From Apostichopus japonicus (Eukaryota > Echinodermata > Holothuroidea > Aspidochirotida > Stichopodidae), in NCBI RefSeq assembly GCF_037975245.1, contig NC_092566.1:8722001-8786000 (forward strand): 64,000 nucleotides of DNA, given 5' to 3'. Made by a program: the position numbers and the translations under genes. The notes under the pieces were generated by a model that worked only from the letters and a program-made list of their open reading frames with translations, was not told the origin of the DNA and did not search any database. The number at the start of each line of letters is the position of its first letter. Within the stretch, counting starts at the first letter, position 1. This document shows, in pieces, positions 35,837-64,000 of the stretch.

Positions 35837-37797
35837 CAGGTGCGTATCCAGGGGGGCGTTGGGGGCGCGCGCCCCCCGGGTAAGGAAAAGAGGAGAGAAA
35901 AAAAGAGAAGAAAAAAGGGAAAAGGAGGGGGAAAAAGAAAAGGAGGAGAGAAAGGAAGGGAAAAGAAAAAGAAAAGAGAGAAAAAGGAGAAAAGGAGGGA
36001 GTAGAAGATAACTTCGCCAAGACCTCGGGAAGAGAAAGAGGAACAGTCATAGTTAAAGCGCTGATCCCAATTATGTACACAGGGTAGCCAGTGACAGATC
36101 AAGGATTACGGAGAGAGTGTGCGCATCACCCTACCCCTTACACCGACAGCTCCATTTTTGACGTTTCCATTTTTCCTCTCTCACTAATGTATCTATATAA
36201 ATACTATATATCGTCTATCATAACGCGTGTGTGTGTATGGACTATGGACGCCTTAACAATTGTACAATTGTGCTATATGGAACCAACTGTGGCTGGTCTT
36301 GAACTCGACCGAGTCGTCGGGGAACATGACGCATTTCGGGAAGGGGGCGACCGCCCCCCCCCCCCCGAGCAAATTTTCTTTACGACATCGCTAGTAATTT
36401 CAAAATAGACAATGCTTAGATGCAACTTACAAGGCCTGGGAAGTGTCATTTTCAGCGATCTTGGAGGCATTTTCGGCCAAAATTTTTCTTGTACGCTTCG
36501 CGCCAACTCATGGTGGCGCTTCGCTTAGATAGTTTGCCTACAGGCTTCGCCCCTCTCTTGGCATTACTCGCTACACGCCTGTTCGAATTTGTAAAGCAAA
36601 GAGCAGATATAACATCATATCAGTGAGCACTGAAATGCATGTTCCACGATGAACAGCCTCAAAAACTGTCTATGTGTGTAGTCAAAGGCGTAGGAGCCAA
36701 ATTGGATTCGGGGCTGTAACGACTTGCCCGAAAAAAAAGCTAAAATTGTTCGCGCGCGTAGCGCGCGTTCAACATATCGATGCCAATATCATATAAGCAA
36801 GCATCGGTCATTACATTGCATGGCATCGTGTGCCTTAAGATCCGTAAAAGTTGCACAGTATACCGCCGGATGCTAATGTAAACAACCAAATGTATATGTA
36901 GATGGAGAAAAAGCATACAGATCCATTTATGTCAAAACTCTCTTTTACAGTAGTAATGTCGGCCGAGCTTAGAACTTTATTTTAATTACCAAGGAGATCA
37001 TTTTTAAGCTATTCATTGCTATTTATTTTTTTCAGTAGGTGCCCGAAAAAATGGGAAAAATTTGGTTGCGGGAAGGGGGGGGGGCTGCAGCCCCGCCTCC
37101 TACGGGACCTACGCCTATGTGTGTAGTGTTCGGTTTCGATATACCTGATATCGGAAATATCTGCTATTTGTCATTTCCTTCAACCAAGTTTTATAATAGC
37201 CATTATTAGAGGTTGCAATATTTCTACACCAATAAATTAACTGTGTCGGAATTTTCGAAACTTTCCTCACCAACATTCTTCATCATACTTCCCTCTACTC
37301 GTGCAATTTTGACCTGTCTATTAGGGGTTCAAGGAGGTTTTTCTATATTGGTTGTCCATAGATAGAATTTTGTGCAACATTATGGGTATGTTTTGAAGTG
37401 ATTTTTATTCACGAGAAATGGGAATTTTCAAATTCTCAACAAATAATGGGCTTAAAACCTTGAAAAGTGGGGCTTTCGGATATTGTGGGCCGTGACGTAG
37501 AATCACCTTCAAAAGCAATGATCCATGGGACATGCAATGAGGTCGAACATGATGTGTTACTGATGACAATCTTCAAAAAGGTTATGGATGGAAAAAAAAA
37601 ATTTTGGGAAATACTTGGTTCTCAGGCAAAAGTGTACATCTGGTTGGTCATTTTCAAGCCCGAGAAGTGCCATTTCCGGTGATCTGGGGGGTATCAAAAC
37701 CAGAAATTTTCTTGTACGCTCCGCGCCAACCGATGGTGGCGCTCCGCTTAGATAGTAATTCGCACCCCCGGGTTAGAAAATCCTGGATACGCGCCTG
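35837..37797 (-). mobile_element. hAT-like non-autonomous element, ~1.96 kb (5-bp TSD family)
   Basis: Left terminus CAGGTGCGTATCCAGG; right terminus, reverse-complemented, CAGGCGCGTATCCAGG. Same family as 59646-61598, where it lies in the other orientation. Contains a polypurine tract (35878-36005) and the 43-bp cassette at 36491 and 37714. No transposase frame is seen. Confidence 0.85.
35878..36005 (+). repeat. Polypurine tract inside the hAT-like element
   Basis: About 128 bases of almost only A and G on the + strand. The mirror polypyrimidine tract of the sister element is at 61440-61555. Open frames across both are low-complexity artefacts. Confidence 0.85.
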
Positions 37798-38911
37798 GTA
37801 CATATATACTATATATGGTCTATCATAACGCGTATGTGTGTATATGAAACCTGCTATGAAACCAACTGTGGCTGGTCTCGAGTTCGACCGTGTCGTCGGG
37901 GAACATGACGCATTTCGGGAAGGGGGTGACTGCCCCCCCCCCCCATTGAGCATATATTTTTATGATATCGTTAGTAATTTCAAAATAAAAAATGCTTAGA
38001 TGCAACTTATAAGGCCGGGGAAGTGTCATTTCCAGCGACCTTGGAGGTACTTTCGGCCAAAATTTGCTTGTACGCTTCGCGCCAACAAATGGTCCTGGGT
38101 AGTGCCATTTCCAGCGATCTGGGAGGCATTTTTTCGGCCAAAAATTTTCTTGTACGCTTCGCGCCAACACATGGTGGCGCTACGCTTAGATAGTTTGATA
38201 ACAGGCTTCGCCCCTCACTTGGCAAACTCCTCGCTACGCGCCTGCTCGAATTTGTAAAGCAAACAGCAGATATCACCTTATATCAATGAGCATGAAAATG
38301 GTGTTCCAAGATGAACAGCCTCAAAAATGTCTGTGTGAAGTCATGGGCGTAAGAGCCCAATTTGATTTGGGGCTGTAACGACTTGCCCGAAAAAATAACC
38401 AAAAATTTTCAAGCGCTCCGCGCGCGTTGAACATGTTACTGTCAATATCATATAAGCCAGCATAGGTTATTACATCGTATGCCATCCTGTACCTTACGAT
38501 CCGTGATAGTTGCGCAGTATACCGCGGGATGCTAATGTAAACAACGAAATGTCTAATGTAGATGGGGAAAACCTTGAAAAGTGGGGATGACAGGTATTGT
38601 GGGCCGCGACGTAGAATCACCTACACAAGCAATGATCCACAGGACATGCGATCAGGTCGAATATGATTTGTGACTGCTGACAATCTTAAAAAAGGTTATG
38701 GATAAAAAAAACACTATTGGGAAATACTTGGTTCTCAGGCAAAAGTGTACATCTGGTTGGTCATTTTTAAGCCTGAGAAGTGCCATTTCCGGTGATCTAG
38801 GGGGTATCAAAACCAGAAAATTTTCTTGTACGCTGCGCGCCAACCGATGGTGGCGCTCCGCTTAGTTAGTAATTGGCGCCCCCGGGTCAGAAAATCCTGG
38901 ATACGCGCCTG
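37798..38911 (-). mobile_element. Partial second copy of the 5-bp-TSD hAT-like element
   Basis: Begins mid-element (compare the TCTATCATAACGCG motif near 36215 and 37820) and ends with a second right terminus, CCTGGATACGCGCCTG. GACAT flanks the whole 35837-38911 composite (35832-35836 and 38912-38916), so both copies sit as one insertion. Carries 43-bp cassettes at 38152 and 38828 and a truncated one near 38070. Confidence 0.8.
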
Positions 38912-39868
38912 GACATTGTAGTTGCCTTGGTTTCTTATATTGTTCAAAGCAAACACAACACTGACAAAACTTCTCATCGATATCATCCAACACTTTAGCA
39001 GCGGCCATTTTGTAATATAACCTTGCTGTTGAAAAAAAAACATGAAAACTGATTATTTGTTAAAAGTATAGCCAGAATGCCATTGTCTTACCTTTTGCCA
39101 ATTTCCATAGGCTTACATACCCAATTGGATGTACTAACAAACAAAATATTAAGTTCATATACCATATGTACTTAAGTTGGACTAGTGTCAAATCTGGACA
39201 AGTACAAATATAAGACACATAGCCTAAGTGTAATACAAGGAATAAAGTAGTCAAGTACAATGAGAACTCCTTTGTTCAAGTCCTCGGTCCGAATGCTTAA
39301 CAGTAAAGAGCACACATAAACATGCACAAACGTATACCATCACTATTGCAAACATTCCATTTGTCGTCGATAAGGAATCAGTCAGTAGGCCGAACTGTTT
39401 AGCGATTCCATGCCATGTGTTATATGATAGTATTGAACGCTGACACTGCACACAAGATTTGTCAGTGCCTTTGACTTCAAGTGTTCAGCAAGTACTATGA
39501 ATGCGGACATACATATCAACTATATACATTTCATGGACATCAACATACAATCGAACCTACATTCCAAGTATGAACTTCAAGGAAGATGCACTTTTTGTGT
39601 TATCATGTTAGGAAGGTTTTCATAATTTGACCTATGTTGCCACAAATGATCTTTGACCTCCACTTATATCGACAAGGACTTATGCCACAGTATGTATCTA
39701 CCAAGTATATGTGAACTTCAACCAAGATTTACTTTGTGATTAATGGTGCTAACATAGTTTTGAAAAGCTAACGTTGTTGCCTCGAATGACCTTTAACATT
39801 TACTTCTTTCGATAAGGTTCTTGCGCTTACCATGGAGAATCTATCTACTTGCTAATGTATAATTATGC

Positions 39869-39881
39869 TGACCTTTGACCT
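39869..39881 (-). promoter_or_regulatory. DR1-type motif upstream of TRIM-B
   Basis: Same perfect TGACCTTTGACCT, about 0.86 kb upstream of the TRIM-B start; a TGATCTTTGACCT variant lies near 39645. Confidence 0.38.
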
Positions 39882-41087
39882 CAACAATCAATAATACGCC
39901 TTTATTTACAATGGAGGATCTACCTATACCAAGTAGCCTACTGTCTGAACGTCAAACAATAATGTTGACTTCGGACAAGGAGATTCTTGAACCTCCATGC
40001 TTCGGCAAAATATCAAAGTTGAGATCGGGCTGTTGTCGTGTTCTCGAGAAAGCACTATTTTATAACGAAGCATTGCTTTCACGTGCATATGTTGTATATT
40101 GATACTATATAGTAGTTGCCTAAGCCAATATAGCAGTACTGTGATTATACTGTCTCTATATACCAGCTGTACAGGTACAGCAGAAGTGCACATTATCTTA
40201 TTAAACTTTACCAGGTACAGACCTGTCAACCTGTTTGACTCCAAAATAGGGAGAATAACATTTTTTCAGGGCAAAAAAATAGGGAGCACAAGGGGAAAAT
40301 AGGGATAATTTCAACAGAAATGACATGAATACTCCTAAATAAGTTCATTCTACCTATGCAATGCAGTGAGAGAATCATCCAATCAGTGTTTCTTGTTGTA
40401 GTTTACAGCAGCTCGCTTCGCTTTCTACAGGGTTTCTTTAGTAGGCTTCCATTTGAAACAGGGAACAGTGGACTCTGGGTACTGTGACTTCATGTCTAGT
40501 ATGCTAGATGAAGTCCAATCAAGCTTGAGACTTGACCGACTGTGTCTTGTTCTTGCGAACTACACTGAATAGCCTTTCCTGTTCAGCTTTACTGTGGGGG
40601 CATAGGACTAATTATTGGCTATTTTCAGAAATGTCGCAAGTGATGAAACATTAATAAAAAAACGGAAGAATAGAATATGAAACCGGGAGGCCGGGAGAAT
40701 CGGGTAAAAACCGGGAGAGTTGACGGGTCTGCAGGTAGCTGTCATGACTGCAATAACTCCTGAGAACGGGTTTTTGTGTTGCGTTTAATGATGTAAATCG
40801 GGTTTCCTCACATCTTCTTTCCGCAGATTTCGCAATACAACTTTGTGTGCTATACTATCCTGTGTTTCTGTTCGCTAATTACACGTACGCAAGTGTACTA
40901 TACTTATGTGCTAGGCGAAACCGGTATTTTCCAACAGGATAAAAATAGAATTTTACAGTCCACGCATAATATCGCATCCCAACACGTACTGTATTGAGGA
41001 TGAGATGTTTTACTTTGTCAATTATATGCGAGGGATATATTATTTTTAAATAGAGATGTGCAAAAAACCAAAAAAAAAACCAGCAAC

Positions 41088-42760
41088 CAGTGGCGTAGCC
41101 AGACTTTTCCATCTGGGGGGCAAAGGGGGGCGAAGGGTCTGATTGGTGGGGCAGACTAAGCTAGTACAAAAGACATACCAAACAGTTTGCATGACAAACT
41201 GTGGCAAATCGGGTATTGTGTCAGCAATGAAGGGTACAGATGGTCACTCTAGTTAGCTGATGTTTTATGTTATTTCCACATAGGTATTATAAACGATAAA
41301 ACAGATCACTGAAAAAGTCATCGATAATTCTCTTTAAAAATCTGAATAGACTATGCTCTTTCTGTCAGTATTCAAAGATGATCGGCATGATATCTGACTT
41401 GCCTGGGAGTGTAACCACCCCCCCCCCCAATCAACAAAAGATGTTATCATTCCCCCTTCGGGCCCTTCTTTTGCACTTTCTAGGGCTCACTCAAACAGTC
41501 TAGCGAAGGTTAATTCGCCTATTCTGATGACTGTCTGCGAACTTATCGACGAATTTCACGCCCTATTAGTTAAGGTGACCATATTTTCGTGACTGAAATC
41601 GGGGACATTTATTGCGTGACTGATATGGGGGAGGGGTTTAAGGGGAGGGGCTGGCCCTCCCCTTTGGAAAATTTTCAAGTGCCTAAGGTGCTTAGATGTA
41701 AAATGGTGATACTTTGAAGCACTTTTTAAATCAATTTTATTTTCAAAAAATGTAGCTTTTTCGTAAATGAAATCCACTTACTTTACGTGGTTCTTTGAGA
41801 GCTTGTGATTTGCTCATGCTCACACTATAAGTGTCGTTGTGTCGCCGTAGTTGCCTATTTATACGGTCGAAAGAGTGCTAGGCTAGATCGATCTAGCATA
41901 TTTTTAACAGTGTTTCCACTTTACACTGGCCCACCTGAAATACTGGTTATAAGTTCCGTTCTGCGACTGCACACTTGACTAAATTTTGTTTTTACAATTA
42001 TTTTACTAATAATGTGGGATATTTTCGAAATTCCTGAACATTTTGACGAATCGGGGACATTTTCGGGGACACTTGTTCATCGGGGACAGCACACTGTAAT
42101 CGGGGATTGTCCCCGAAAATCGGGGACGTCTGGTCACCTCGGGCCTATGAGCTCACTACGGAAATACAAATGTATATAGACTACTAGGCTGTTCTGTGTA
42201 TACCTAACCCAAGAAACACATCGCGATTGGTCGCGTAGGCGTAGCAAAACATGTTGTAAGTTTCAGTCAAAATGCAAATTGTTTCTAAATACTGTGATAT
42301 TCATTCTGCCATACACGTCACTCACGTGTGAATCATTTCGGAACACAATCCAGGGATCAGGGATAACCATGTGAACATAAACTGAACGTAGCCTCCGCTT
42401 ATGAGTGCCGCGGAGTCCGTTTAATTAAATTGCCAACCCGTTTCCACATATGACAATACAGAGACAGTGGCGTTTTTTGCGCTGCTGCTTGGGTCAAATT
42501 CTTTTTCAAGGCAATGTTCCCATGGAAGTGATTTTTATTTTGGCCATCCAATTTCGCAGATAGAGAATTAGGTAAAAGGTAAAGAATAAAAATTGCATAA
42601 AAACCATGTTAATATGCACATAGGCCCAGCACCATATTTAGTGTGCATTCAAGTTTTTTTTTCACAGTCAATAATTCCATTTGGGGGGCAAGTGGGGGGC
42701 GAGCATTTCAACTGGGGGGCTCCCGCCCCTGCCCCCCCCCCCCCGCTGGCTACGCCACTG
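41088..42760. mobile_element. hAT-type non-autonomous element, 8-bp TSD
   Basis: Termini CAGTGGCGTAGCCAG and, reverse-complemented, CAGTGGCGTAGCCAGC. Exact 8-bp duplication CCAGCAAC at 41080-41087 and 42761-42768. Unit E has the empty site near 61804. 1673 bp with no transposase, and another element nested inside. Confidence 0.92.
41570..42143. mobile_element. Nested MITE-like element inside the hAT element
   Basis: Inverted ends carry AGGTGACCA, with repeated TCGGGGACA motifs inside. Flanks CCTATTAG (41562-41569) and CCTATGAG (42144-42151) are probably an 8-bp duplication with one change. Exact outer bases are uncertain. Confidence 0.6.
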
Positions 42761-44256
42761 CCAGCAACTAACAAATTGAGGGCCTATTTTATGTAGAATT
42801 ATGATAATTATTCATATGTATTATATATAGGTTAAGTTATTATTTTCTCACCCCTACGTGTACCGTAGCTGTACTTGGGATGAGATATTGTAATCTGAAA
42901 TTAAGCAGTACCGGTATATGAAATTGTTGCCCACATCACACTACTTGAAATTTAAACTGGGTGAGTTCATCTGACTTAAGGGGAGAAGGGGGGGGGGGTT
43001 CCATAGGGTGCACAATAACATGGAGTAGACTTACCATATTTGAAGTAGTGGTCAAGAAGTAATTGTGTATTCGTGTGTGCGAGTAAATGTGTGAGTAAAA
43101 AGGGGTATCACGAACTCCTAAATCGTAAGGCCGATTGACTTCAAAGCCTGGTGTGCGTGTGCGTTTGTTTTTCTATCTGACCGAGGACTTGAACAAAAGC
43201 ATTCCAGGTCCTCGGTTGTGATTTCTAAAGAATCACCACGTCCTCGGAAGAACTCTATTGTATGGGTTATTGTTAAGGTTAGGGTACGAAGATTTGAACA
43301 ATGGAAAATACAATGGGGTCCTCGGTTGGAATGAAATACAAACATGCGTGTGTGTGTATGTGTGTGTATGCATGGGAATGGGTAGTCTTGGCCAAGTCGT
43401 TTGTAATACTCTTTTTCTCGCGTACAAACTGTTTATGCCTCAGAGTGCGTTTCTGCCTACCACGAATGTTCTTGCCCACTGTATTTTACATGCCAGAGGT
43501 TCTGTCCGATACAAACGTCTTGGACATTTCTCCGAAGAGGGGGCGTGAAACCAAAATCTTTATTCATATTATTATTACAAAATTGCGTGTCATGTCAGAT
43601 CATGTTTCTTCCACAGCAATTAGCGACCGTCTCGCAGTGAACAAAACAATCTAAGGCCAAGTGATTGTTCACTACGGGAGGCAGGACTTGAATAAACATT
43701 TTGGGGGAAGTGGGCCCAATTGGCAAACCTCATTGGCTTCTTCGCTTTTCCGAAGCAAATCTGCCAAAAATCAAAGAAAAACATGAGGTAGCTTGGGATA
43801 AATGTGCAAGACCCATAGTATCAAGCTAAAGCGTTGCCGTCGGTGTTCTCTGGGCAGTAGAGCAAAAAAGATTCCGGAAAATAGCTTTATTGAAAAGAAA
43901 GGTACACTAGGCTGTTCATACTAAGACTAGGGAATGGGACGTAGAGCATCCGTGACTTATGACGTCATAGACAAAGGAAGAGACCGGTCAAATAAAAAAT
44001 AAAATAAAAAAAACAGCATTGTGGTCTTAAAATGAAGAACAGTATGGCTCAATACTTGATACACAAGTGTTATCACAGACTGTATATCCACGGTGTGGAA
44101 ATTAGTTTAAAAAGCCAAAGCTCACGCAATCAAAGGAAGTCAAAGTTCAACATTTTTAATCTTGTACGTAAAAGCGTTTTGCAAGCAACTCCTTCCTCGT
44201 AAGGCCGATGGACTTCAAACTTGGTACGCATGTGCCTGGGCATGGGTGGTTGCGCC

Positions 44257-44627
44257 CAAGGGCGTAGGAACCGGGGGGGCTAGCGGGGGCGCCAGCCCCC
44301 CAGTGAAAAATATGGGGGGGGCGGAAGTATCATTCCGCCCCCCCCCCCGCTCCGCAAGTCAGAAAACCCCTTTTTCATTTCCAAATGAGAAAAAAATCTC
44401 ATTTGGAGCACCAAATTGCATTTAAGGCCAGGTGAAAATGCAAAATTCTTTACAAAATGGAGTGGGAGTTGAAGTGTGCTATATTGCACCAAATTGCATC
44501 TGAGGCCACCTGGAAATACAAAAAAATTCCAAAGGGGAGGGGGACACCCCCTCCCCTTAGACCCCTCCCCCAGGCCGGCCATCAGTCTTCAGCCCCCCCA
44601 ACTCAAAAGTATCTTCCTACGCCACTG
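44257..44627. mobile_element. hAT-type MITE, 371 bp, 8-bp TSD
   Basis: Termini CAAGGGCGTAGGAA and, reverse-complemented, CAGTGGCGTAGGAA. Exact duplication GTTGCGCC at 44249-44256 and 44628-44635. Contains a GGGGAGGGGG/CCCCCTCCCC hairpin near 44537. Lies in the 5' block of unit B. Confidence 0.9.
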
Positions 44628-45511
44628 GTTGCGCCTGTGTGACCAACAGCGTCATAGGATCAAAGGTCAAGTAACCAAAAACAGCGCTGTAACCATTACA
44701 CGTACACTAAAAAGACTTCAAACGTTAGTAAGTTATCACAAACTATATATAATTAACATTTCTATACGTTAAGATGTCTTAAAAGATATAGCAAAATATG
44801 TAAAAATGAAAAAAATAAATAAACAACTGATTCTGAGTTTCATGCACATACAATAAGCGCAGTGAGGGAACTATACTATGAATGTACACACACAATAAAA
44901 AAAAAAAATATCAAGAAAGGTTTCTAGTTAATATTTAACACGTATCCCGAACACCCCAGGGTGTAACAATATCAGGGACGACGTTAATTGCATCTGCTTA
45001 TGACAAAAGTTCAAATTTGATAATGAGATCACCGTGGGACATGGAGAACAAACGCAACCCTCCCCTCAACAGTCTGGTCTCCCAAAAACTAAAGATTTTC
45101 AGTTTTAAAATGATGGATATTTCTGATTTATTAGCAATACTATGTCAAAATGTCTCCTTTGGTTCGCATGATTGACCCAATTTGACGCGCACACAAACTC
45201 ACACAAATTGTTGTTTGAACCCCACCTCATATATTGTTCTAAGTCCATCCAATTTTATTGTGTTTTTCTATGTTTGGGATTAAACCTGCTGACACTGTTG
45301 ATGTGGTCCGCGTCCCTCCCGTACGTGTTCCAATGGGGTCCAAAATACAGAGCAGTGACGAAGAAAGCTATATCAAGAAGTGAAAGAGGGGTTTGGGGTA
45401 TTCTACAGCTATTCTCAGGCCAAGCTAAAAATAACAGATACATACAAATGAGATGATGGAAATTTCAATATATTTATTTTCAAATTTCAATACTTTCGGA
45501 TGTTCCACTAA

Positions 45512-45859
45512 AGGGAGTGAAGACTCGCGCACAAAGAAATGTCCGATGCCGGTAATTTGACCTAGTTTCGAATGAGGTGTAACAGCAGTGCTAGACACCA
45601 CCATCGATCCCAGAAAATACACACACAGCTTGCTACCGTCGGTAATTAGACACTAGTGTACAGTCAATACATACAGGCTGAGGTAAATACTCACAACACA
45701 GTGTACATAGCAGCGATGGACAGCTCAGGTCCAGCTAAAGATAACAAGGTATCGCGTTTCATTACTGTCTGCATTTTGTAGCGACAAGAAGAAAAAACTT
45801 CAACGCAAAGTTAACTTTTCAGAGGGCGGCACACGATTTGTGGCGAGTCTTCCATGCCT
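45512..45859 (+). mobile_element. piggyBac-like MITE in unit C
   Basis: The left flank is now CTAA (45508-45511); the right flank is TTAA (45860-45863). Termini AGGGAGTGAAGACTCGCGC and, reverse-complemented, AGGCATGGAAGACTCGCC. Confidence 0.87.
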
Positions 45860-46731
45860 TTAACTGGTATATGGAAACGTCAAATTTTCACCTTCAAAAG
45901 TCCCTCTGATTCGATTTCATTATCATGTTTATCGAAATTTCGACTTGTCCCTTTAAATGTCGACCTTGCAATTTCGACGTATTATATTCGTCTACCGCTT
46001 GCTTAACTTTTTGTTTTCATAGTTTGACCTTTTTACCAAATTTTAAAGTTTTGTCTCAAATTTGGAGTTTTTATATCTATACAGTTCAATTATTACCTCT
46101 TTATTAATAGTCTGCAATTTTTGACCGAACTTTTTCGATATAAATATTTGAATAAGTAGGACCATTTTAGACAATAGTAGAACATTCAAGTTCGAATTAA
46201 GCTGTTTGAACTGTTGTTGCCTCAAAATGGAGAGAGTAGTAACATTTTCAGTGAATTGCAAATAATGCCTTCGAATGACATCAAATGACCTTAAGAATGG
46301 CCGAAATACCTCACTTCGGTCATAAACTCCAAACTCTATATTTTCACCAATTTTCATAGTCAAAATGATCTAAAGTTGAGTGAATGAGAGCATTTTAAGC
46401 GCTGCTGCCGCAAACATTCTTGACAAAAAATGCCTCTTGATCACAATACCTCATAATCCATTCTAGCTCGTTTAATAGTTAATCACTTACTACAGGACTA
46501 AATTTGTAACCGGTATCCAAAATACAGACCGGATCCAAATCGTTATAGCCTTTATGAAAGATAACTAAGATATTATATTTTGGCGTAACGCTACTGTACG
46601 TAATTTAGCGTATCATTATTATGTTAGAAGCAAAGTACTAACTAAATCGAAGGTATACGATGGTTTAGGAGTAATGAAACCCTGCAGAATGTTGAATGAT
46701 AGTACCGTTTAGTACTGAGAAAAAATAAATG

Positions 46732-48924: not shown

Positions 48925-49741
48925 TTTGTGATATAAACTCGCTGTCGAAAGAAAAATATACATTGACAACTTATATTTGTTGAAAGTATAACCAGAATGC
49001 CATTGCCTGACCTCGTCAATTTCCATAGGCTTACACACCCAATAGAGTGCACTAACATGAAGTTCATATACCAAATGTAGTACTTTGGACTAGTGTAAAA
49101 TCTGAACAAGTACAAATATAAGATACATAAGTGTAATACAAGAATTCTTTTGTTCAAGTCCTCGGTCCGAATGCAAAACAGTAAAGAGCACACATAAACA
49201 TGTACATATATATCACCACTATCGCAAACATTCCAACTGCCGTCTATAAGGAATCAACCAGTTAATCGAACGGTTTAGCGATACCATGCCATATGTTATA
49301 TGATAGTATTGAAAACTGCACACAGCTGTACACAAGGTTTGTAAGTGCATTTGACTTCAAGTGTTCAGCAAGTATTAATTCGGACTTACATATCAACTAT
49401 GTACAGTTCATTGACATCTGCATACAAGTGAACCTCCATTCCAAGTATGAACTTCAAGGAAGATGTACTTTTTGTATTATCACGTTAGGAAGGTTTTTAT
49501 AATACCTATGTTGACCACAAATGATCTTTGACCTCCACTTATAAGGTTATGTACTTATATCACAGTATTTATTGATCAAATATGGACTTCAACCAAGATG
49601 AACATTTTGATTAAAAGTGCTCACATAGTTTTAAAATGTAAACGTTTTTGCCTCTAATGCCCTTTGACATTAATTACTTTCGATAATGTTTTTGCGCTTA
49701 CCATGGAGAATCTATCTACTTGCCGCTATGTATAATTATGT

Positions 49742-49754
49742 TGACCTTTGACCT
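49742..49754 (-). promoter_or_regulatory. DR1-type motif upstream of TRIM-C
   Basis: Perfect TGACCTTTGACCT about 0.82 kb upstream of the intact TRIM-C start. Confidence 0.4.
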
Positions 49755-51747: not shown

Positions 51748-53395
51748 CTATTCCATCTTCATGGCAGGCAACAGCAATTTTTAACTTATTGACATGAGCA
51801 CAGTAACAGCCAGGTGAGGAAAATATTGAATTGAAATGTGTGCCAAGCTTAGAACTTACAACTTTGCCTTTCATATCTATTAAACTGATATAGTTTTGTT
51901 TGTCTGGTGTACCTCCACTGATAACGATTCCACCATTCCATGTACATGCTATACTATTGATATACAAGCCGGCAGCTTTGATATAATCAATGTGAACCAC
52001 AGTGGCTTCAGTGCTGCATAAGTGTTCTTGTTTTAGCTGTCTCCCTACATAAATTGCCACTTTTGCCACATTAGAATAATCCTTTTTCATATCCTGAATC
52101 AACGGCTCTGTGGCTTTGCAGATAGCTTCAATATTATACGCTGCTGTCCAATCATCCTGACTCGAAAGAACGTTTTCATGTGTGTTTGTGACATTTTCAA
52201 ATTTTCTAACCGTACTGTTTACTTCTGAAGAAAACTTCTCCCAGTTTAGAAGCTTCTTTTATTTCGGTACAAACTTTTTGCAACTCCAGAGCGATTCGGT
52301 TGCGTTTCGCATTTGCATCCTCTTCACTCGCGGATCCAAGGGGGGGGGGGGGCAAGGGGGGCCATGGCCCCCCAAAGGTGAGCCAAAAAGTGTTTTCGAA
52401 CATCCGCTAAATCATATGATTGGAAATTAAAAAAATCGAGAGGAATAGCAGTGGTAGACTAGTCTAAACCTTTTCGTTTTCTGGTTTAAAATTAAATGCA
52501 GAGCTCCCAACTGACCCGCAATTCGCGGGAATTAGACCCGCATTCTAACACCCAAACCCGCTGACCCTCACAAGCGTCCGAAAAAACCGCATTGTAATTG
52601 TCAAGTATACATAAAAAAAATTGCATCAAATTTTGACTTAGCAACCACCATTTCTTTAGCATTTAGCATAATAGAGTATAAAACCTCCTTTACAGCATCA
52701 TTTGAACCTCAAATTAGCCTATATTTCTTTTCATTGGGGCGAGCAGCGAACATTTTCATGCCACGGGAAAGAATGAATTATCACCTACTATTCAATTTAT
52801 TGATGTTACACACAAAAAAATGCATATTTCTCAGAAAATTTTGGGTGACAAAAGCCTTTCTAAGTGCCACCATTTTACATGTAGGCATCACCAGGATTCC
52901 AAAAAAAATCAAAAGGGGAGGGGGTCACCCCCTCCCCTTATACCCCTCCCCAGGACGGCGATTTGTGGCATGGACCAGTACTTGCCTTTTCAAGAGTTGG
53001 GAGCTATGTAAATGTATGAGCATGAGGATTTACAGTTTAACACCATTTTGCAGTTACAGGCTGGTTGTAAGAAATTTATAACCTATGAGAAATAATTTTT
53101 TTTGAGAAAGATTTTTGAGAACTTTTTTTCATAAATATTTTAGAAAATTACACCTGGGAAACATTTTTTTTAGAAGTAAATTAACATCACCATTGTACAC
53201 TTTTGTCGCACCAAATTGCATCTGAGGGCATTCAGCAATAGGAAATTTTCCAAAGGGGAGGGTGGCATCCCCTCCCCTTAGACCCCTCCCCCATATCACT
53301 CTAATGCCACTTTGGCCCCTCCCAAGCAAAGGCCCTGGATCCGCCAGTGATCCTCTTGAGCTTGTTTTGAGCGTGTCTTTTTTTGAACGTGTCAA
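51748..53395 (-). pseudogene. TRIM-D: internal TRIM fragment, deleted and interrupted
   Basis: Only the coiled-coil end and the start of the propeller-like region remain (for example YINSIACTWNGGIVISGGTP). No RING, B-box or C-terminus. A hAT element splits it at 52325-53349. The right edge has a short duplicated TTTTGA-CGTGTC stretch before switching to 5'-block sequence. Confidence 0.92.
52325..53349. mobile_element. hAT-type element, 1025 bp, 8-bp TSD, within TRIM-D
   Basis: Termini CACTCGCGGATCCAAGG and, reverse-complemented, CACTGGCGGATCCAGGG. Exact duplication ATCCTCTT at 52317-52324 and 53350-53357. Contains two GGGGAGGG/CCCTCCCC hairpins (near 52916 and 53256). No transposase frame. 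Confidence 0.92.
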
Positions 53396-54673
53396 AGATA
53401 TAGCAAAATATGTAAAAATTTATTGTAGGACAATCTCTTATCATCTTTGTTTAAAAATACATAATAGCATTATCGGAAAAACTATATCTTATACCAGACG
53501 AAACTGGACATTAAACACTACAAAGTCTACTTAATCGAATTTGTGTGAGTCTATAAGGCAGAAACTGTTCAATGCAATGAAATGAAATGTTTATAGGAGT
53601 TGAAAATAGATAACTTACTGTAAACTTCGACAACAGCTACTTCTTCGAAGTTTTGCCTCGATCGTGCACTTTCATCATATATTTTCGTATAATTTGGTCT
53701 TATTGCTCGTATTTATAAGAATATGACAGGAACACACTGCAACATCTTCGTCTCCTGGCTCATTATCATTGTATCAATTAATCAATATTTTTCAGAATTC
53801 TGCAGTTTAATGGGAAACACACTTTGCGAATATATGAACCTTTGATCATAATATTTCACTAGTTGCCTTATCCCGGTAATGAAGTAAACGGTGCTGTTGA
53901 GCAATATTTATGAACAACTGATCCTGAGTTTCATGCACATAAGCGCAGTGAGGGAACTATACCTTGACTGTACACACTCAAAATAAAAAGATCAAGATTT
54001 GGTTTCTATTTTTAACACACATCCCGAACACCCCGGGGCGTAACAATATCAGGGAGGACGTAAATTGCATCTGCTTATGACAAAAGTTAAAAATTTGATA
54101 ATGAGATCACCGGAGAGCAACTCCCACCCCCTCCCTCCCCCTTAACAGTCTGGTCTCCCAAAAACTAAAGATTTTCAATTTGACAAAAATGGATATTTCT
54201 GATTTATTAGCAATACTATGTAAAAATGTCTCTTTTTGGTTCGTATTTTTGACCCAATTTGACACGCACACAAACACACAAAATATTTTTGGAACCCCAC
54301 CTCAAATATTGTACTAAGTCCATCCAATTTTATTGCGTTACCCTATGTTGGGGATAAAACCTACTGACACTGTTGATTTGGTCCGCGTTCCCCTCCTACG
54401 TGTTCCAATGGGGTCCAAAATACAGAGCAGTGGCAAAGAAAGCTAAACCAAAACGTCAAGGAGCAGATCTCGGGTGTTTTAGGGTATTCTCCACTATTCT
54501 CAGGCCAAGCTATACATGTTTTTAGGTTGTACATTTATAAAGCGCTTTGAGCAGCTTTGCTGATTATGCGCTATTTAAATATTACTTATTATTATAACAG
54601 ATACATATACAAATGGGATGATGGAAATTTCAATATTTTTATTTTCAAGCATCAACACTTTCGGAAGTTCCAC

Positions 54674-54677
54674 TTAA
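54674..54677. other. Empty MITE target site (TTAA)
   Basis: The flank reads GGAAGTTCCACTTAATTGGT, exactly the sequence that brackets the MITE in units A and B, with a single TTAA. Confidence 0.9.
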
Positions 54678-56087
54678 TTGGTATATCGAAATGTCAATTT
54701 TTCACCTTCAAAACATGATTCGATTTCATGATCATGTAATATCGAAATTTCGACATATCCCTTTAAATGTCGACCTTGTAATTTCGACGTGTTATATACG
54801 TCTTCCGCTTGTTTAATTGTTTTTTATTTCAGTTTCAACTTTTTACAAAATTTCAAAGATTTTGTCTGAAATTTGGATTATTTTATATCTATAAAGTTCA
54901 ATTATTGATTCTTTATTAATAGTCTGCATTTTTTACCGAACTTTTTCAATAAAAAAAAATGGAATTAGTAGGACCATTTTAGACAAAAGTAAAACATTCA
55001 AGTTCGAATTGAGCTGTTCGAACTGTTGTTGTCTCAAAATGGAGAGAGTAGTAACATTTTCAGTGAATTGCAAATAATGCCTTCGAATGACATCAAATGA
55101 CCTTGAGAATGGCCGAAATCACCTCGGTCAAAACTCCAAACCCTATATTTTCACCAATTTTCATTTTCATAAAAATCTAAAGTTAAGTGAATGAGAGCAT
55201 TTAAAGCGCTGCTGCCGCAAACATTCTTGACAAAAAATGCCTCTCGATCATAATACCTCATAATCCATTCTAGTCCGTTTAACAGTTAATCATAGTACAG
55301 GACGAAATTTGTAACCGGTATCCAAAATACATACCGAACCAAATCGTTACAGCCTTTATAAAAGATAATTAGGATATTATATGTGGGCGTAATGCATCCA
55401 TCATTTGGTTCAAAACGTGTATAGGAAACCAATTTATAGTAAAAAACAGAAGAGAACTCGAAACAGACAAATATGTTCAAAGAAACTCCCTGGCTTAATT
55501 CTCAAGTCAATAACTTGCTCCGTTACTAAGATATTGCTATATGTATACAATTTAGCAAACATTCAGTCTAAAAAAATGTATTATGTAAATGTTTGGTGAC
55601 GTCATTGATTATAAAACATTCACTTGACCTTACTGTTCTTAGGGTGTGGCAGAGGGGTTGCATAGTGAAATAAACTTACACCATAAGGCGTTAACACTGA
55701 TAAGTTTTAAACCTGTAATGCTACTCTCATGAGGTAGATTATACTATAAAAATTAAGGCTGTAGGCCTTTACACGTAAGGTTGTGCAAAATGCTGCTTCT
55801 TTTATTGATTTAGGCTACTTATTAATTTTTGTGTGGGATTGAAAAGGTGTTAGGAATGTATTTTCTACACCACTCTGGGTCAGCAGCTGTAAATATTATT
55901 TGCTTTCACGCTACGTTATTTAGCGTATTATGTTATGTTAGAAGCAACGGTAATGACTAATTCGATGGTATATACAAAGGTATAGGAAGCATAACGAAAC
56001 CCTACCGCATGTTGAATGTCTGAATGATAGTACCGTTTAGTATAATTGAGAAAAATAAATGTCAATTGCGTCTTGCGCAGTCCCTTT

Positions 56088-58329
56088 TCACCCATTCAGG
56101 TCAAAGATATGCATCATTGCAGACTGAAAGGTAATTACTAAGAGCTTAGGCTTGAAGTCTGACGTTACACATAAAGACACCGCATCCGAGAAAAACAGCG
56201 GAAATTCTTTGGTTATGTCACTGTTCTCTCCTCTGTACTGAACAACAACACAACACTGTTCACACGGGGTTTGTTTCTCCCTCCAAAGAATATAAATGAA
56301 GCCCTTCCCGTCTGAGCAAATACTGACAGGTATGTTGCACCTTTTGCTGACCTCTGGTTTTTGGAATTCGTGAATTTGTGCATCTTTCATGTTTATAGCC
56401 CATGCTTGTCTCCCTCCTATATCACAAACGAAGATGTTTGAATTGTGGACAATTAGATCGACTGGCCACAGGCTTATGTCCCATGGAAGTCGTATGGTGT
56501 CTTTATAATTTAAGCTCTCGTCAAGCACGTGCATATCTCTGTTGTTATAGATGCATAGAAAGATGGAGTTAGTTACAGAATCCGTAGCGATGCATGTAAC
56601 TCGCTGTTTTGACTGTGACCACCCTGGGATGAAATCGCCCAGGTGCTTGCTTAAATATGAACCATCAATAATATCATACAGAGCTATTCCATTTTCTTGA
56701 CAAGCAACAGCAATTTTTAACTCATTGACAGGAGCACAGTAACAGCCAGGTTCGGAAAGTACTGATTTGAAATGTTTACCTAGCTTAGAATTTAAAACTC
56801 TGCCTGTCATGTGTATAAAACTGATATAGTTTTGTTTGTCTGATGTACCCCCACTGATAACGATTCTACCATTCCATGTACATGCTATACCAGGGAGCTG
56901 CTACTAGAGTAGCAGCTCCCTGGCTATACTATTGATATACAAGCCGGCAGCTTTGATACCAGCAATGTGAACCACAGTGGCTTCAGTGCTGCATAACTGT
57001 TCTTGTTTAGCTGTCGCCCTACATAAATTGCTAGTTTTGCCACATTGGAGTAGTCCCTTTTCATATCCCGAATCAACGGCTCTGTGGCTTGGCAGATAGC
57101 TTCAATATTATGCGCTGCAGTCCAATCATCCTGACTCGAAAGAACGTTTTCAGCTGTGTTTGTGACATATTCAAATTTTCTAACCGTACTATTTACTTCT
57201 GAAGAAAACTTCTCCCAGGTTAGAAGCTTCTCTCTCTTCTCAGATTCTATTTCGGTACAATCTTTTTGCAACTCCAGAGCGAGTTGTTTGCGTTTCGCAT
57301 TTGCATCTTCTTGAGCTTGTTTTGAACGTTTCTTTAAGGCATTCGAGGTTTTAGTTGCCTCTGTGCGATGATTGATTTCAATTAGTTTGTAATTCTCTCG
57401 AATTTGTTGAATTTCCCTTTCTATTTCCTTGTCTTTACGTGAAATATTTTCTTCAAGTTCCTGTGTTATTTCATTTTCTTCAACCTCAATCTTTCGTTGA
57501 ATATCTCGCTGTGTACTTTCCAGACTACTCTTCGTTTCATTGTTTTTCTTTGTACTTGCGTCCAAATGTTTGGCGGCATTAGAGAAAATTTCGTCTTTAG
57601 CCATTTTTATTTGGGAGAGTGTTTCATAAACTCTGTCTTTAAACTCATCAAGGGCCTTTGACTGCCTCTTTAATTTCTTTCTTTCTGATTTGGCAATTTC
57701 TTTCTTTCTGATTTGGCAAGTTCTGTGACGTCATACATATCATGATTTCTGTGTTCTCCGTAGGTACAGGTTAAACAAATTGGGCGGTTTGCGCAAGATT
57801 TACAACATAACTGTGACTGATTCTGAGGATGAGTCTGGCACCTGGGAGCTTCCTTTAATATGGATAACTTTCCGAGAGTGATATTTTTGGCTTCAACATC
57901 TTCCAGTGATAGGATATGTGGCCTATGTTCCTGTAAACTTTTCCTGCTCAAGTGATATTCATGACAATCCTCGCACAGAAAATCAGTACACTTGAAGCAG
58001 TATGCTGAAGATTTGGTTTGCTTGGAACAATCACCGCAAGTAAGAATTTGATCCTTTTTCAGAGACTTTTTTACTTTAATATAATCTAGGATTCCAATCA
58101 TGTAAAAGTCTGACTTAGAGCCCTCTACGCCATTTTTTGGAACATCGATCTTTTCCTGACATAATGGACACTTGATATCAGTAGGATCTTTGGCGATCAT
58201 TTTCTCCAAGCATTCTGTACAGTATCTATAGAGACATTGTAGTTGCCTTGGTTTCTTATATTGTTCAAAGCAAACACAACACTGACAAAACTTCTCATCG
58301 ATATCATCCACAACTCTAGCAGCGGCCAT
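56088..58329 (-). pseudogene. TRIM-E: TRIM pseudogene with several lesions
   Basis: Starts MAAARVVDD at 58329. RING, B-box1 and B-box2 are intact through TYGEHRNHDMYDVTELAKSE. A 23-bp tandem duplication of the TTTCTTTCTGATTTGGCAA region (about 57690-57735) then shifts the frame, and the product stops at 57670. A second frameshift lies near 57005, and a 32-bp palindrome at 56891 adds an in-frame TAG. The last 240 codons (56810-56088) are open again and match TRIM-B, sharing features such as NSIFLCIYNNRDM. A short RING/B-box peptide of 219 aa is the only intact product possible. Confidence 0.9.
56891..56922. mobile_element. 32-bp perfect palindrome with 7-bp target duplication
   Basis: Two back-to-back CAGGGAGCTGCTACTA arms (16 bp each) with nothing between. 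Flanked by GCTATAC at 56884-56890 and 56923-56929; all other TRIM copies have one GCTATAC. Looks like a pair of transposon ends without an interior. Confidence 0.85.
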
Positions 58330-59172
58330 TTTGTGATATAACTAATTAGCTGTTGAAAAAAAAACATATGAAATAAAATTGTTTGTTGAAAGTATAACCA
58401 GAATGCCATTGTCTGACCTCTGCTAATTTCCATAGGCTTACACACCCAATAGGGTGCACTTAAAGTTTATATATCATACATGTACTTTGGACTAGTGTAA
58501 AATCTTAACAAGTACAAATATGAGATACACAAGTGTAATAACAGGAATAAATAAACAAAGCAAAATCATAATTTCTTTGTTCAAGTCCGAATGCAAAACA
58601 ATAAAGAGCAAACTCAAACATGCACATATATACATACCGTCACTTTCGCAAACATTTCTTTTGCCGTCGATAAGGAATCAATCAGTACGCCGAACTATTT
58701 AGCGATTCCATGCCATGGTATAATAGTATTTAACACTGACACTGCACACAAGATTTGTAAGTGCCTTTGACTTCAAGTGTTCAGCAAGTACTATTAATGC
58801 GGACATACATATCAACTATATACAGTTTTGACAAATACATACAAGTTAACCTCCATTCCAAGTATGAACTTCAAGGAAGATGTACTTTTTGTGTTATCGT
58901 GTTAGGAAGGTTTTCATAATTGACCTATGTTGACCACAAATGATCTTTGACCTCGATGCTTATATCGACAAGGTTTTATACTTACCAAAGTATCTATCTA
59001 TCTATCAATCAAGTATGGACTTCAACCAAGATTTACTTTGCAAGTAAAGGTGCTAAAATAGTTTTGAAATGTTAATGTTATTGTCTCGAATGCCCTTTAA
59101 CATTCACTACTTTCGATAATGTTCTTGCCCTTACCACGGAGAATCTATCTACTTGGTAATGAATTATTATGT

Positions 59173-59185
59173 TGACCTTTGACCT
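59173..59185 (-). promoter_or_regulatory. DR1-type motif upstream of TRIM-E
   Basis: Perfect TGACCTTTGACCT about 0.84 kb upstream of the TRIM-E start. Confidence 0.38.
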
Positions 59186-59645
59186 CAACTATCAATAATA
59201 CGCATTTACTTACCATGGAGGATATATCTATACCAAGTACTGTCTGAACGTCAAATAATAATGTTGACTTCGGCCAAGGAGATTTGCAAGGTCCTTGTTG
59301 AACCACCTAATTGCTTCAGCAAAATATCAAAGTTGAGATCGGACTGTTGTCGTGTTCTCGAGAAAGCACTATTTTATAACCAAGCATTGCTTTCACGTGC
59401 ATATGTTGTAAATTGATAACATACTATAGTTGCCAAAGCCAATATAACAGTACTGTGAGTATACTGTCTCTATATAACAACTGTTTAAGTTCAGCAGAAG
59501 TGCACATTATCTTATAAAACTTAACCAGGTAGCTTTCATGACTGGAATAACTTCAACTCACATGAGAATGGGTTTTCGTGTTGGATATGATGGTGAAAAA
59601 CAGGTTTCCTCACATCCACTTTCCGCACATTTCTGCGTGTGTTAC

Positions 59646-61598
59646 CAGGCGCGTATCCAGGATTTTCTAACCCGGGGCGCGAATTACTATCTAAGTGGAG
59701 CGCCACCATCGGTTGGCGCGGAGCGTACAAGAAAATTTCTGGTTTTGATACCCCCCAGATCACCGGAAATGACACTTCTCGGGCTTGAAAATGACCAACC
59801 AAATGTACACTTTTGCCTGAGAACCAAGTATTTCTCAATTTTTTTTCCATCCATAACCTTTTTGAAGATTGTCACCCGTCACATTTCATGTTCGACCTCA
59901 TTGCATGTCCTATGGATCATTGCTTTTGTAGGCGATTCTACGTCACGGCCCACAATATCCGAAAGCCCCACTTTTCAAGGTTTTAAGCCCATTATTTGTT
60001 GAGAATTTGAAAATTCAGATTTCTCGTGAATAAAAATCACTTCAAAACATACCCATAATGTTGCACAAAATTCAATCTATGGACAACCAATAGGAAAAAA
60101 CCTCCTTCAACCCCTAATAGACAGGTACAAATTGCACGAGTAGAGGAAAGTATGATGAAGAATGTTGGTGAGGAAAGTTTCGAAAATTCAGACACAGTTA
60201 ATTTATTGGTGTAGAAATATTGCAACCTCTTATTATGGCTATTATAAAACTTGGTTGAAGGAAATGAAAAATAGCAGATATTTCCGATATCAGGTATATC
60301 GAAACCGAACACTACACACATAGGCGTAGGTCCCGTAGGAGGCGGGGCTGCAGACCCACCCCCCCTTGCCCCGCAACCAATTTTTTCCAAATTTTTCGGG
60401 TACCTACTGAGAGAAAAATAGATAGCAATGAATAGCTTAAAAATGATCTCCTTGGTAATTAAAATAAAGTTCTAAGATTGGCCGACATTACTACTGTAAA
60501 AGAGAGTTTGACATAAATGGATCTGTATGGTTTTTCTCCATCTACATAAGACATTTGGTTGTTTACATTAGCATCCGGCGGTATACTGTGCTACTTTCAC
60601 GGACCGTAAGGTACACGATGCAATGCAATGTAATGACCGATGCTTGCTTATATGATATTGGCATCGATATGTTGAACGCGCGCTCGGCGCGCGAAAAATT
60701 TTGGCTTTTTTTCGGGCAAGTCGTTACAGCCCCAAATCCAATTGGGCTACGCCTTCGACGACACACATAGACAGTTTTTGAGGCTGTTCATCGTGGAACA
60801 GGCATTTCAATGCTCACTGATATGATGTTATATCTGCTCTTTGCTTTACAAATTCGAACAGGCGTGTAGCGAGTAATTGCCAAGGGAGGGGCGAAGCCTG
60901 TATGCAAACTATCTAAGCGAAGCGCCACCATGAGTTGGCGCGAAGCGTACAAGAAAAATTTTGGCCGAAAATGCCTCCCTGCAGATCACTGGAAATGACA
61001 CTTCCCATGCCTTGTAAGTTGCACCTAAGCATTGTCTATTTTGAAATTACTAGCGATGTCATAAAGAAAATTTACTCGGGGGGGGGGGGGGGCGGTCGCC
61101 CCCTTCCCGAAATGCGTCATGTTCCCGACGACCCCGTCGAGTTCAAGACCAGCCACAGTTGGTTCCATATAGCACAATTGTACAATTGTTTAAGGCGTCC
61201 ATACACACACACGCGTTATGATAGACCATATATAGTATTTATATAGATACATTAGTGAGAGAGGGGCAAAAAACGTCAAATATGGAGTTGTTGGTGTAAG
61301 GGGTAGGGTGAGGCGCACACTGCCTCCGTAATCCTTGATCTGTCACTGGCTACCCTGTGTATATAATAGGGATCAGCGCTTTAACTATGACTGTTCCTCT
61401 TTCTCTTCCCGAAGTCTTGGCTATCTTCTACTCCCTCCCTTTCTCCTTTTTCTCTCTTTTTTCTTCTTCTTTTCCCTTCCTTTCTCTCCTCCTTTTCTTT
61501 TTCCCCCCTCCTTTTCCCTTTTTTCTTCTCTTTTTTTCTCTCCTCTTTTTCTTACCCGGGGGGCGCGCGCCCCCAACGCCCCCCTGGATACGCACCTG
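59646..61598 (+). mobile_element. hAT-like non-autonomous element, 1.95 kb, 5-bp TSD
   Basis: Termini CAGGCGCGTATCCAGG and, reverse-complemented, CAGGTGCGTATCCAGG. Flanks GTTAC (59641-59645) and GTTAT (61599-61603); unit A has the single site GTTACTGTCTA near 28145. Reverse complement of 35837-37797. Has 43-bp cassettes at 59686 and 60908 and a polypyrimidine tract at 61440-61555. Confidence 0.88.
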
Positions 61599-62141
61599 GT
61601 TATTGTCTACCTGTTCGCAAATTACACATACGCAAGTGTACTTTACTGATATGCTAGGCTAAACCGGTATTTTCCAACAGGATAAAAATAGAATTTTACA
61701 GTCCACCGCATATATTATCGCATCCCAACACGTACTGAGGATGTTGAACTTTGTTAATTATATGCGGGGGTACATTATTTTTAAATAGAGATGTGCGAAA
61801 AAACAGCAACTAACAAATTGAGGGCCTATTTTATGTAGAAGCATGATAATAATTCATATGCATATTATATAGGTTAAGTTATTACTTTCTCATCCCTTGG
61901 TGTAAGTAGTGTACTTGGGATGAGATATTGTAATCTTAAGCAGTATATGAAATTGTTGCCCACTTCATACTACTTGAAATTTAAACTGGGTGAGTACATC
62001 CGACTTAACGGGGGAAGGGGGAGGGGTCCATAGGGTGCACAATTACATGGAGTAGACTTACCATATTTGAATGAGTGGTCAATAAGTAATTGTGTATCCG
62101 TGTGTGCGAGTAAATGTGTGAGTAAAAGAGGGTGCCGCGAA

Positions 62142-62985
62142 CATGGGCGGCGATCCGTACTTCCGAGTGGGGGGGGGGGGGGATATGACCTTGTTGACTA
62201 TCTAAGCGTAGCGCCACCATAAGTTGGCGCGAAGCGTACAGGAAAATTTTGGGATTTACAAACCCTCTAGATGGCCGGAAACGGCACTTCCTGAGGTTTC
62301 CAAGCGGATTATACCCAACTTTAAAATAGGGATATCATGTCCGAAATATCTCATAATCAGGATCCTAAATACTTTTTTTTTTAATTTCGGGTGTTATTTT
62401 GGGAAAATTGCCCCTGTCAATCTTGTTTCAGGCGCTACGTTAGAATGTTCGAGAGCTCTTTTATATTATTCGATGAAGAAATGGCCTCAGGCTATTATAG
62501 GCCTATACACATGCAATACACAATTACACATAGTTACATTCCTAGGTACCGATTGCTAGGGCATCCAGGTGAAACGTGTATTAAGCATTACCCTGGTAAC
62601 ATGAGATTCTCAGCTATTCGAGGGAACATGTACGTGTGTAGGCCTACTATAGGGCCTATATGAATACTATGAGGGTGCATATATGTACTATATCAATACC
62701 GTGGGCGCAATAATACATTTTGTTGTTATAGGGCCAATGAAGCCTACAGTCAACTATTCTTGCTTTATAACGACGGTTTATTTGAAAAGATCGCACTGCG
62801 TTTATGGTAGGCGAGAAATGAAGCTAAAAAAGAGCCGTACATTCACGATGATGCATAAATGTAGGCATGAAAATATTCTTATCCCTGGCATTTGGTGGGG
62901 GGGGGGGGGATATGGTGTATTACATTCCCTCCACCCATTTTCATGGGCGGATATATCCCCCCTTCCCCCAGGATCGCCGCCCATG
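62142..62985. mobile_element. hAT-type element, 844 bp, 8-bp TSD
   Basis: Termini are perfect inverted repeats of CATGGGCGGCGATCC. Flanks GCCGCGAA (62134-62141) and GTCGCGAA (62986-62993) match at 7 of 8. Carries the 43-bp cassette at 62197. No transposase. Confidence 0.85.
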
Positions 62986-63158
62986 GTCGCGAACTCCTAA
63001 ATCGTAAGGCCGATTGACTTCAAAACTTGGTGTGTGTGTATGCATGGGAATGGGTAGTCTTGGCCAAGTCGTTTGTTATACTCTTTTCTCGCGTACAAAC
63101 TGTACATGCCTCAGAGTCCGTTTCTGCCTACCACGAATGTGATTGTCCACTGTATTTT

Positions 63159-64000
63159 AGCCAGGATTTTTTTTCAGTGGGGAGGGGCGCTGGGGAGCTT
63201 GAACATTTCCGGGGGGGGGGGGCTTGACCATTTCCTTGTTACTATCTAAGCGGAGCGCCACCATGAGTTGGCGCGCAGCGTACCGAAAATTTTTAGCTAA
63301 AAAGGCCTCCTAGATCGTTGGAAATGACACTTCCCAGGCCTTATAAGCTGCTCTAAAGATTTCTCAACATCCTTTATTTTGAGATCCCATGTTTTGATAT
63401 GGTCATCAAATAGTTTAGTGAAATAGAAAAACAAAAATCTGGTAAGTTACTTTGAAATATCATGACATATCTTTTGTAAGTTTGACACCGGCATTGACAT
63501 TTTTCGACAAATCTGCAAATTGCGCGTGGAAAATAAAGAAAGATTGATTGGGCTTTTCACCCAAGTAACATACTGACATGACCAAACTATATGTCAAACT
63601 GACATCAAAGATTGCGTCTGAAATATTATCAGGGTCATAGACTGATTGGCCGGCAGTGGCGGAGCTAGGGGTATTGATCAGGGGGCGAGAATGGCCTGTA
63701 GGGGCGCCTTCGACACCATCTAAGCGGAGCGCCACCATAGGTTGGCGCGGAGCGAACAAACTTTTTTTGAGTAAAGATATTCCCTAGATCGCCGCAACAA
63801 ATGAGTTTCGTACAACAGAATTAAGTCCCGATAAATTAAATACCTCCGTACGTTTAGAGCATTTTGTCAGCAAACTACACCAACAAAATGTGACAAATGC
63901 CAATCGGTAGATGAGAGTGCAATAAAAAAGTCAATAATCGCAAATAAGTAAAAAGTGCTAAAAAGCTGAAAAGGTCGCCAGCAGTCCATTTGAGTCCGTC
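63159..64000. mobile_element. Right-edge transposon cluster (incomplete)
   Basis: After unit E homology ends, two more element starts appear: one near 63160 (CCAGGATTTTTTTTCAGTGG) with a 43-bp cassette at 63241, and one near 63655 (CAGTGGCGGAGCTAGGG, hAT-like end) with a cassette at 63714. Right ends are not in view. No gene is seen. Confidence 0.55.

Follow-up and report, generated by a model that had tools for sequence, protein, structure and literature searches.

A conserved subterminal module shared by hAT-like transposons with different ends in the genome of Apostichopus japonicus

The 64,000-nucleotide stretch of the Apostichopus japonicus genome analyzed here (GCF_037975245.1, contig NC_092566.1, positions 8,722,001 to 8,786,000; hereafter the window) contains nine complete copies of a 43-bp cassette carried by hAT-like DNA transposons. 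We find that the cassette is the first box (box 1) of a subterminal module of about 100 bp, which is part of the elements and not an independent insert, and that this module is better conserved between families than the terminal inverted repeats (TIRs) of the transposons that carry it. All nine copies listed in an earlier note on this DNA were recovered, the last starting at 63715 and not at 63714; the first four lie on the minus strand and the remaining five on the plus strand. As the window has nine exact GCGCCACCATnnGTTGGCGC cores against 0.03 expected from shuffling, chance is excluded. Six of the nine copies come from just two insertions (35837-38911 and 59646-61598) of a single composite element, family A. 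The features of the window are as follows.

35837..38911, minus strand: family A composite element, internally duplicated (TIR and target site duplication search; repeats shared with 59646-61598)
38896..38911, 37782..37797 and 35837..35852, minus strand: TIRs of this element, respectively left (module-bearing), inner left-type and right
36491..36533, minus strand: cassette (box 1), type G, internal to family A
37714..37756, minus strand: cassette (box 1), family A left-end type
38018..38175, minus strand: 82-bp tandem duplication inside the module (Tandem Repeats Finder), source of the truncated cassette
38152..38194, minus strand: cassette (box 1), type G
38828..38870, minus strand: cassette (box 1), family A left-end type
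59646..61598, plus strand: family A element, TIR CAGGCGCGTATCCAGG ... CCTGGATACGCACCTG
59686..59728, plus strand: cassette (box 1)
59758..59784, plus strand: box 2 (GATCACCGGAAATGACACTTCTCGGGC)
60859..60907, plus strand: G-type left-end-like sequence (CAGGCGTGTAGCGAG...), directly outside the second cassette of 59646-61598
60908..60950, plus strand: cassette (box 1)
60984..61010, plus strand: box 2 (GATCACTGGAAATGACACTTCCCATGC)
62142..62985, plus strand: family E element, TIR CATGGGCGGCGATCC ... GGATCGCCGCCCATG, with an 8-bp target site duplication GCCGCGAA/GTCGCGAA (7/8 match)
62197..62239, plus strand: cassette (box 1)
62270..62296, plus strand: box 2 (GATGGCCGGAAACGGCACTTCCTGAGG)
63175..63240, plus strand: family J left end (CAGTGGGGAGGGGCG...), right end not identified
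63241..63283, plus strand: cassette (box 1)
63654..63714, plus strand: family I left end (CAGTGGCGGAGCTAGG...)
63715..63757, plus strand: cassette (box 1)

The first family A insertion is flanked on both sides by a perfect 5-bp target site duplication (TSD), GACAT, and holds four cassettes plus a truncated one, which the note had placed near 38070 and which proved to be one unit of the 82-bp tandem duplication. The second insertion has an imperfect 5-bp TSD (GTTAC/GTTAT) and contains two cassettes, with a CATAGGCGTAGG-type element nested inside it. Copies of family I elsewhere measure 375-404 bp, so the right end of the family I element in the window probably lies beyond it.

The 43-mer consensus is ACTATCTAAGCGnAGCGCCACCATnnGTTGGCGCGnAGCGTAC, in which two direct repeats GCGnAGCG, 23 bp apart, enclose the inverted repeat GCGCCA/TGGCGC, the same core organization that had been described from the window alone. 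Box 1 is followed by AAGAAAATTTT, then by a variable stretch and then by box 2 (GATnGCCGGAAAYGGCACTTCCCGGG, including the quasi-palindrome GGAAAYGnCAYTTCC), with a spacer of 29-30 bp between the two boxes. The similar box that the note had seen further inward is therefore real, but the 43 bp are not the whole unit. The left boundary of the module is sharp, at ACTATCTAAGCG, and beyond box 2 residual homology fades in families C, G, H, J, D, L and E.

A search of the genome (671,581,487 bases, 35 contigs; only the best candidates were scored in the genome-wide searches) with up to one mismatch returned 17,799 cores (8823 + 8976), against 0 for the reversed-pattern control. With the spacer of the core left free between 0 and 8 bp, 11,655 exact places were found. 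Among the first 100 of these, which were not selected for length, the spacer is 2 bp in 89, 1 bp in 8 (mostly CATGGTTGG), 0 bp in 2 and 3 bp in 1. The length of 43 bp, taken earlier as exact in every copy, is thus a strong mode and not a rule. A core shorter by 1 bp, GCGCCACCATGGTTGGCGC, recurs in 7 of the 100 places (e.g., C1:64856, 1002931, 1381846 and 1643833) and may represent a subfamily with changed spacing.

Three other identities or distributions of the cassette were considered. A Kozak-like reading (CCACCATG) was dropped because most copies lack an ATG. An Rfam scan of 59600-64000 gave nothing near the gathering score, and a structured RNA or short interspersed element (SINE) was rejected on this basis. 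In viral contigs we found a single exact core (L101), which we judge to be a chance match and not a sign of spread beyond this genome because nothing else of the module accompanies it (15.9 bits over ~30 bp).

We compiled 30 loci and a further 40 from the start of contig C1, picked by exact core, giving 95 cassettes including those of the window; this sampling covers one end of one contig. A recognizable hAT-like TIR lies near 85 of the 95 cassettes, so that closeness to a terminus is not limited to the four cases previously noted near a left end, and these were sorted into 14 end-types; the other 10 are, by eye, mostly decayed, truncated or rearranged forms of the same end-types. The cassette lies 37-76 bp inside one end across the 14 end-types, all of which start with CAG or CAT and a GGCG-like continuation, matching the hAT-typical CA(G/T) start of the TIR. 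Seven end-types (B, C, D, E, F', I and K) have matching TIRs and perfect 8-bp TSDs. Two, A and F, have 5-bp TSDs (TAGAG, GAAGT, CTATA, GTGTA and ATGTC in A copies; ACAAA in an F copy) and are hAT5-like. Carrier elements range from 0.25 to 3 kb. The best copies of A, C and F are 98-100% identical to their consensus, which indicates recent amplification.

The two ends of these elements are built differently, since the opposite ends lack the cassette and carry the TIR, usually together with a G tract and a GC-rich palindrome (for example, GGGGGGGACATGTCCCCCCC). In complete elements (L001, L008, L019, L066 and others) a G tract precedes a perfect G5-7/C5-7 palindrome in the module-less right end, and the center of the palindrome is specific to each family. 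The G tract and palindrome are a second feature common to these elements.

We compared conservation between families block by block, scoring mismatches to the between-family majority. Because the loci had been selected by the 20-bp search core, only the 23 box-1 positions outside it were tested. These positions show 20/322 mismatches (6%), or 8/294 when the two n columns are left out. The spacer, taken as two halves, shows 21/182 and 50/182, box 2 shows 54/351, the TIR 66/224 (29%), the 30 bp after box 2 177/390, and the 16 bp just outside box 1 122/224 (54%). Fisher p-values for the box-1 flanks of the core versus the other blocks range from 1e-10 to 9e-38; these are too small, as A/B, F/F' and G/H are not independent, but the contrast remains large. 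Slower evolution of the cassette than of its surroundings, anticipated in the note, is thus borne out between families. The same comparison within families would tell little, because copies decay neutrally after insertion.

Are the carriers unrelated families or relatives with altered ends? Both situations occur. Family B can be aligned to D, E and M at 71-75% starting at position 1, across the TIR. The left ends of B, D, E, K and M align throughout, and we regard these 8-bp families as a single clan whose ends have diverged; the different termini reported earlier are real as end-types, but do not all mark separate families. Terminus replacement accounts for other differences. A (5-bp) and B (8-bp) have 583 + 212 bp in common (84-86%) but differ at the right end and over the initial 33 and 53 bp, and F (5-bp) is almost wholly contained in F' (8-bp), minus only its first 14 bp. 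These common interiors under different ends agree with the module exchange between hAT families that had been suggested, and for F' the simplest account is that it arose by one element capturing another. Individual chimeric carriers include L003/L004 (family B with a family A interior) and L025/L070/L073 (F' with nearly the whole of F).

Searching the sampled loci with open reading frames (ORFs) from hAT loci revealed a transposase fragment inward of the module-bearing end at L074 (family M). Together with the adjoining L108, this locus forms an element of ~2,350 bp bounded by CATGGGCGTCAATCCGGGGG...CGGATTGACGCCCCTG, with a TSD matching at 6/8 positions, in which the transposase reads from the palindrome end (5') toward the module end (3'). 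In tblastn searches the fragment matches hAT ORFs (E 6e-9 and 1e-8), and its last ORF matches PF05699, the hAT C-terminal dimerization domain, at E 3.1e-4 (20.9 bits, just under the cut-off of 21.4). Family M is the one carrier with transposase-domain evidence. A coding hAT carrier of the cassette, which the note had suggested looking for, therefore exists, but its transposase is degenerate and the frame is broken. The best-preserved relative of this transposase (C14:3452785, 89% identity over the fragment) lies within an 802-aa open frame.

The arrangement seen at L074 recurs. Among the best candidates of genome searches with the M transposase fragment (150 scored places) and with the M module end (40 scored places), 13 of the 40 ends are paired with a transposase 1.3-4.2 kb away, in every case inward and reading toward the module. 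No pair was found in any other arrangement, and randomly shifted positions gave a mean of 0.14 and a maximum of 2. From this convergence we conclude that the module identifies the 3' end in a hAT clan. At 8 of the 40 M ends a second module lies directly outside the TIR (e.g., C2:20615121-20615486 and C3:4028324-4028687); TIR-module units can iterate in tandem.

We consider it probable, with moderate confidence, that the module is a recognition domain lying at the 3' end, downstream of the transposase, in a hAT clan and in its non-coding derivatives. The suggestion that the cassette is a bound site is the most economical account of the conserved unit, and the binder, transposase or host factor in the original proposal, is most likely the transposase or a helper protein that grips the module. 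Box 1 and box 2 would be held by DNA-binding fingers of several transposase subunits, with the direct repeats of box 1, 23 bp or about two helical turns apart, placed around the inverted repeat. The transposase may load at the module end before it captures the module-less end by way of its TIR, as in Hermes. Asymmetric ends, paired repeats and retention in non-coding copies would all fit such a loading end. The domain would be kept in non-coding copies if only copies retaining it are mobilized, while the TIRs would drift with the transposase of each lineage. New TIRs may also be gained when one element is captured inside another, which would move the domain across families and from 8-bp to 5-bp TSD classes. 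A further possibility, which we raise tentatively, is that transposases belonging to two or more catalytic types (8-bp and 5-bp) share one end-recognition domain; unrelated hAT lineages would then compete for, or co-mobilize, a single non-coding pool, and the TIR would be the exchangeable part.

Several observations weigh against a transposase recognition domain. No sampled A, C or F end could be placed in a coding element, and the 5-bp class may not depend on the module. A 43-bp run with ~39 near-invariant positions is long for a single site. In the flanks of the 30 best hAT dimer-domain matches, the cassette was found only at L059, as a separate D-type insertion, and six coding hAT elements extended upstream (L044, L049, L050, L052, L054 and L058) have no module of their own, only separate insertions. 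The module is thus not a general hAT requirement.

The main rival is a host factor: the module could be a site for an architectural or zinc-finger protein, or a transcriptional control element, exploited by several unrelated transposases. That the module is common to two TSD classes implies different transposases and makes this the leading alternative, and its direct and inverted repeats resemble a multi-finger site; retention in non-coding copies would also suit a host protein. The first argument is weakened by terminus replacement, which alone can move the module between TSD classes. A host site would moreover not be expected to keep to one end, close to the TIR and in a single orientation, as the module does in almost all sampled copies; the module belongs to a transposase-coding family (M), and non-coding copies need no transcriptional role. 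We regard a host factor as unlikely.

Less probable still is that the module has no function and was inherited from a recent common ancestor, with ends that diverged or were replaced by nested insertion. Since B, D, E, K and M can be aligned along the full left end, many of the carriers form one clan, and A/B and F/F' show that interiors hitch-hike. Uniform inheritance would give even divergence, however, and what we see is conservation of box 1 and box 2 but not of the intervening spacer or of either flank, with the caveat that the families are partly dependent on one another. That the module is itself a small mobile element inserting close to hAT ends is very improbable: the sharp boundary at ACTATCTAAGCG and the occasional tandem TIR-module-TIR-module units would suit it, but orientation and side relative to the TIR are always the same, neither a TSD nor terminal repeats belong to the module itself, and in C, G, H, J, D, L and E some homology persists, fading, beyond box 2.

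A recognition domain of this kind has precedents among hAT elements, where subterminal repeats and ends recognized asymmetrically are also known for Tol2 and Ac/Ds. The transposase octamer of Hermes binds its left end, a quasi-palindrome included, through several BED fingers, whereas no finger binds the right end (PMC10368747). The Herves transposase binds subterminal motifs, and the same paper states that the sequences bound differ from one hAT transposase to another, each acting on its own element (PMC3143072). The present carriers resemble Hermes and Herves in having a sequence-specific subterminal region with a quasi-palindrome at one end, inside the short TIRs of elements with 8-bp TSDs. 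As in Hermes the two ends are built differently; here the asymmetry of the ends is what we observe, and finger binding would be the counterpart. They differ in that one module of ~100 bp with two fixed boxes takes the place of scattered short repeats, and in that this module is common to at least 14 end-types and better conserved than their TIRs.

An internal region more conserved than the TIRs is already known from the coral CMITEs, non-coding families with different TIRs and a common 75-bp internal region for which a role in transposition has been proposed (PMC2872659). CMITEs are ~100 bp, piggyBac-like and flanked by TTAA duplications, whereas the carriers here are hAT-like, 0.25-3 kb long and flanked by 8- or 5-bp TSDs, so membership in that group was rejected; the module is, in addition, at one end only and has an identified coding carrier. 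Elements with 5-bp TSDs have been designated hAT5 (Kapitonov and Jurka 2007, as cited in PMC12730594), and families A and F resemble them by TIR and TSD alone. Highly conserved domains such as the V domain are also common to otherwise different SINE families (PMC6887750), but this is an analogy only, as SINEs are retrotransposons with tRNA- or 5S-like heads and the carriers here are DNA transposons with TIRs. In the literature searched we found no report of this hAT module, although individual families may be catalogued in Repbase or Dfam.

Transposon ends are usually classified by TIR. Since the subterminal domain here is better conserved than the TIR and crosses TSD classes, such classification would break one clan into many families and overlook end swapping. 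The thousands of copies in this genome, some nearly identical, make a natural data set on which to study what part of a hAT end is recognized and how new non-coding families arise.

Some observations concern the CATAGGCGTAGG-type elements, one of which is nested in family A at approximately 60320-60770. A related coding locus, L050 (near 1880-1976), has an 801-aa open frame and a CATAGGCGTAGG-type terminus, and near its 3' end carries GCGCGnAGCGcgcGAAAAATTTTGG, which resembles the second half of box 1 but is inverted relative to the TIR. The half-motif GCGCGnAGCG...GAAAAATTTTGG at the termini of CATAGGCGTAGG-type elements is a suggestive but weak tie to box 1. At L044 and L052, CAAGGGCGGCGGAAC elements are inserted at hAT transposase remnants and themselves contain a CATAGGCGTAGG-type insertion.

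Elsewhere in the window, a minisatellite at 12230-13293 (period 43 bp, ~25 copies) is unrelated in sequence to the cassette, and we attribute the shared length of 43 bp to coincidence. Segments of 21487-59239 repeat at a spacing of ~9-13.5 kb, and one repeated unit encodes a TRIM-like protein with RING and B-box domains (23669-25900, minus strand), so this region looks like a tandem gene cluster that hosts the transposons.

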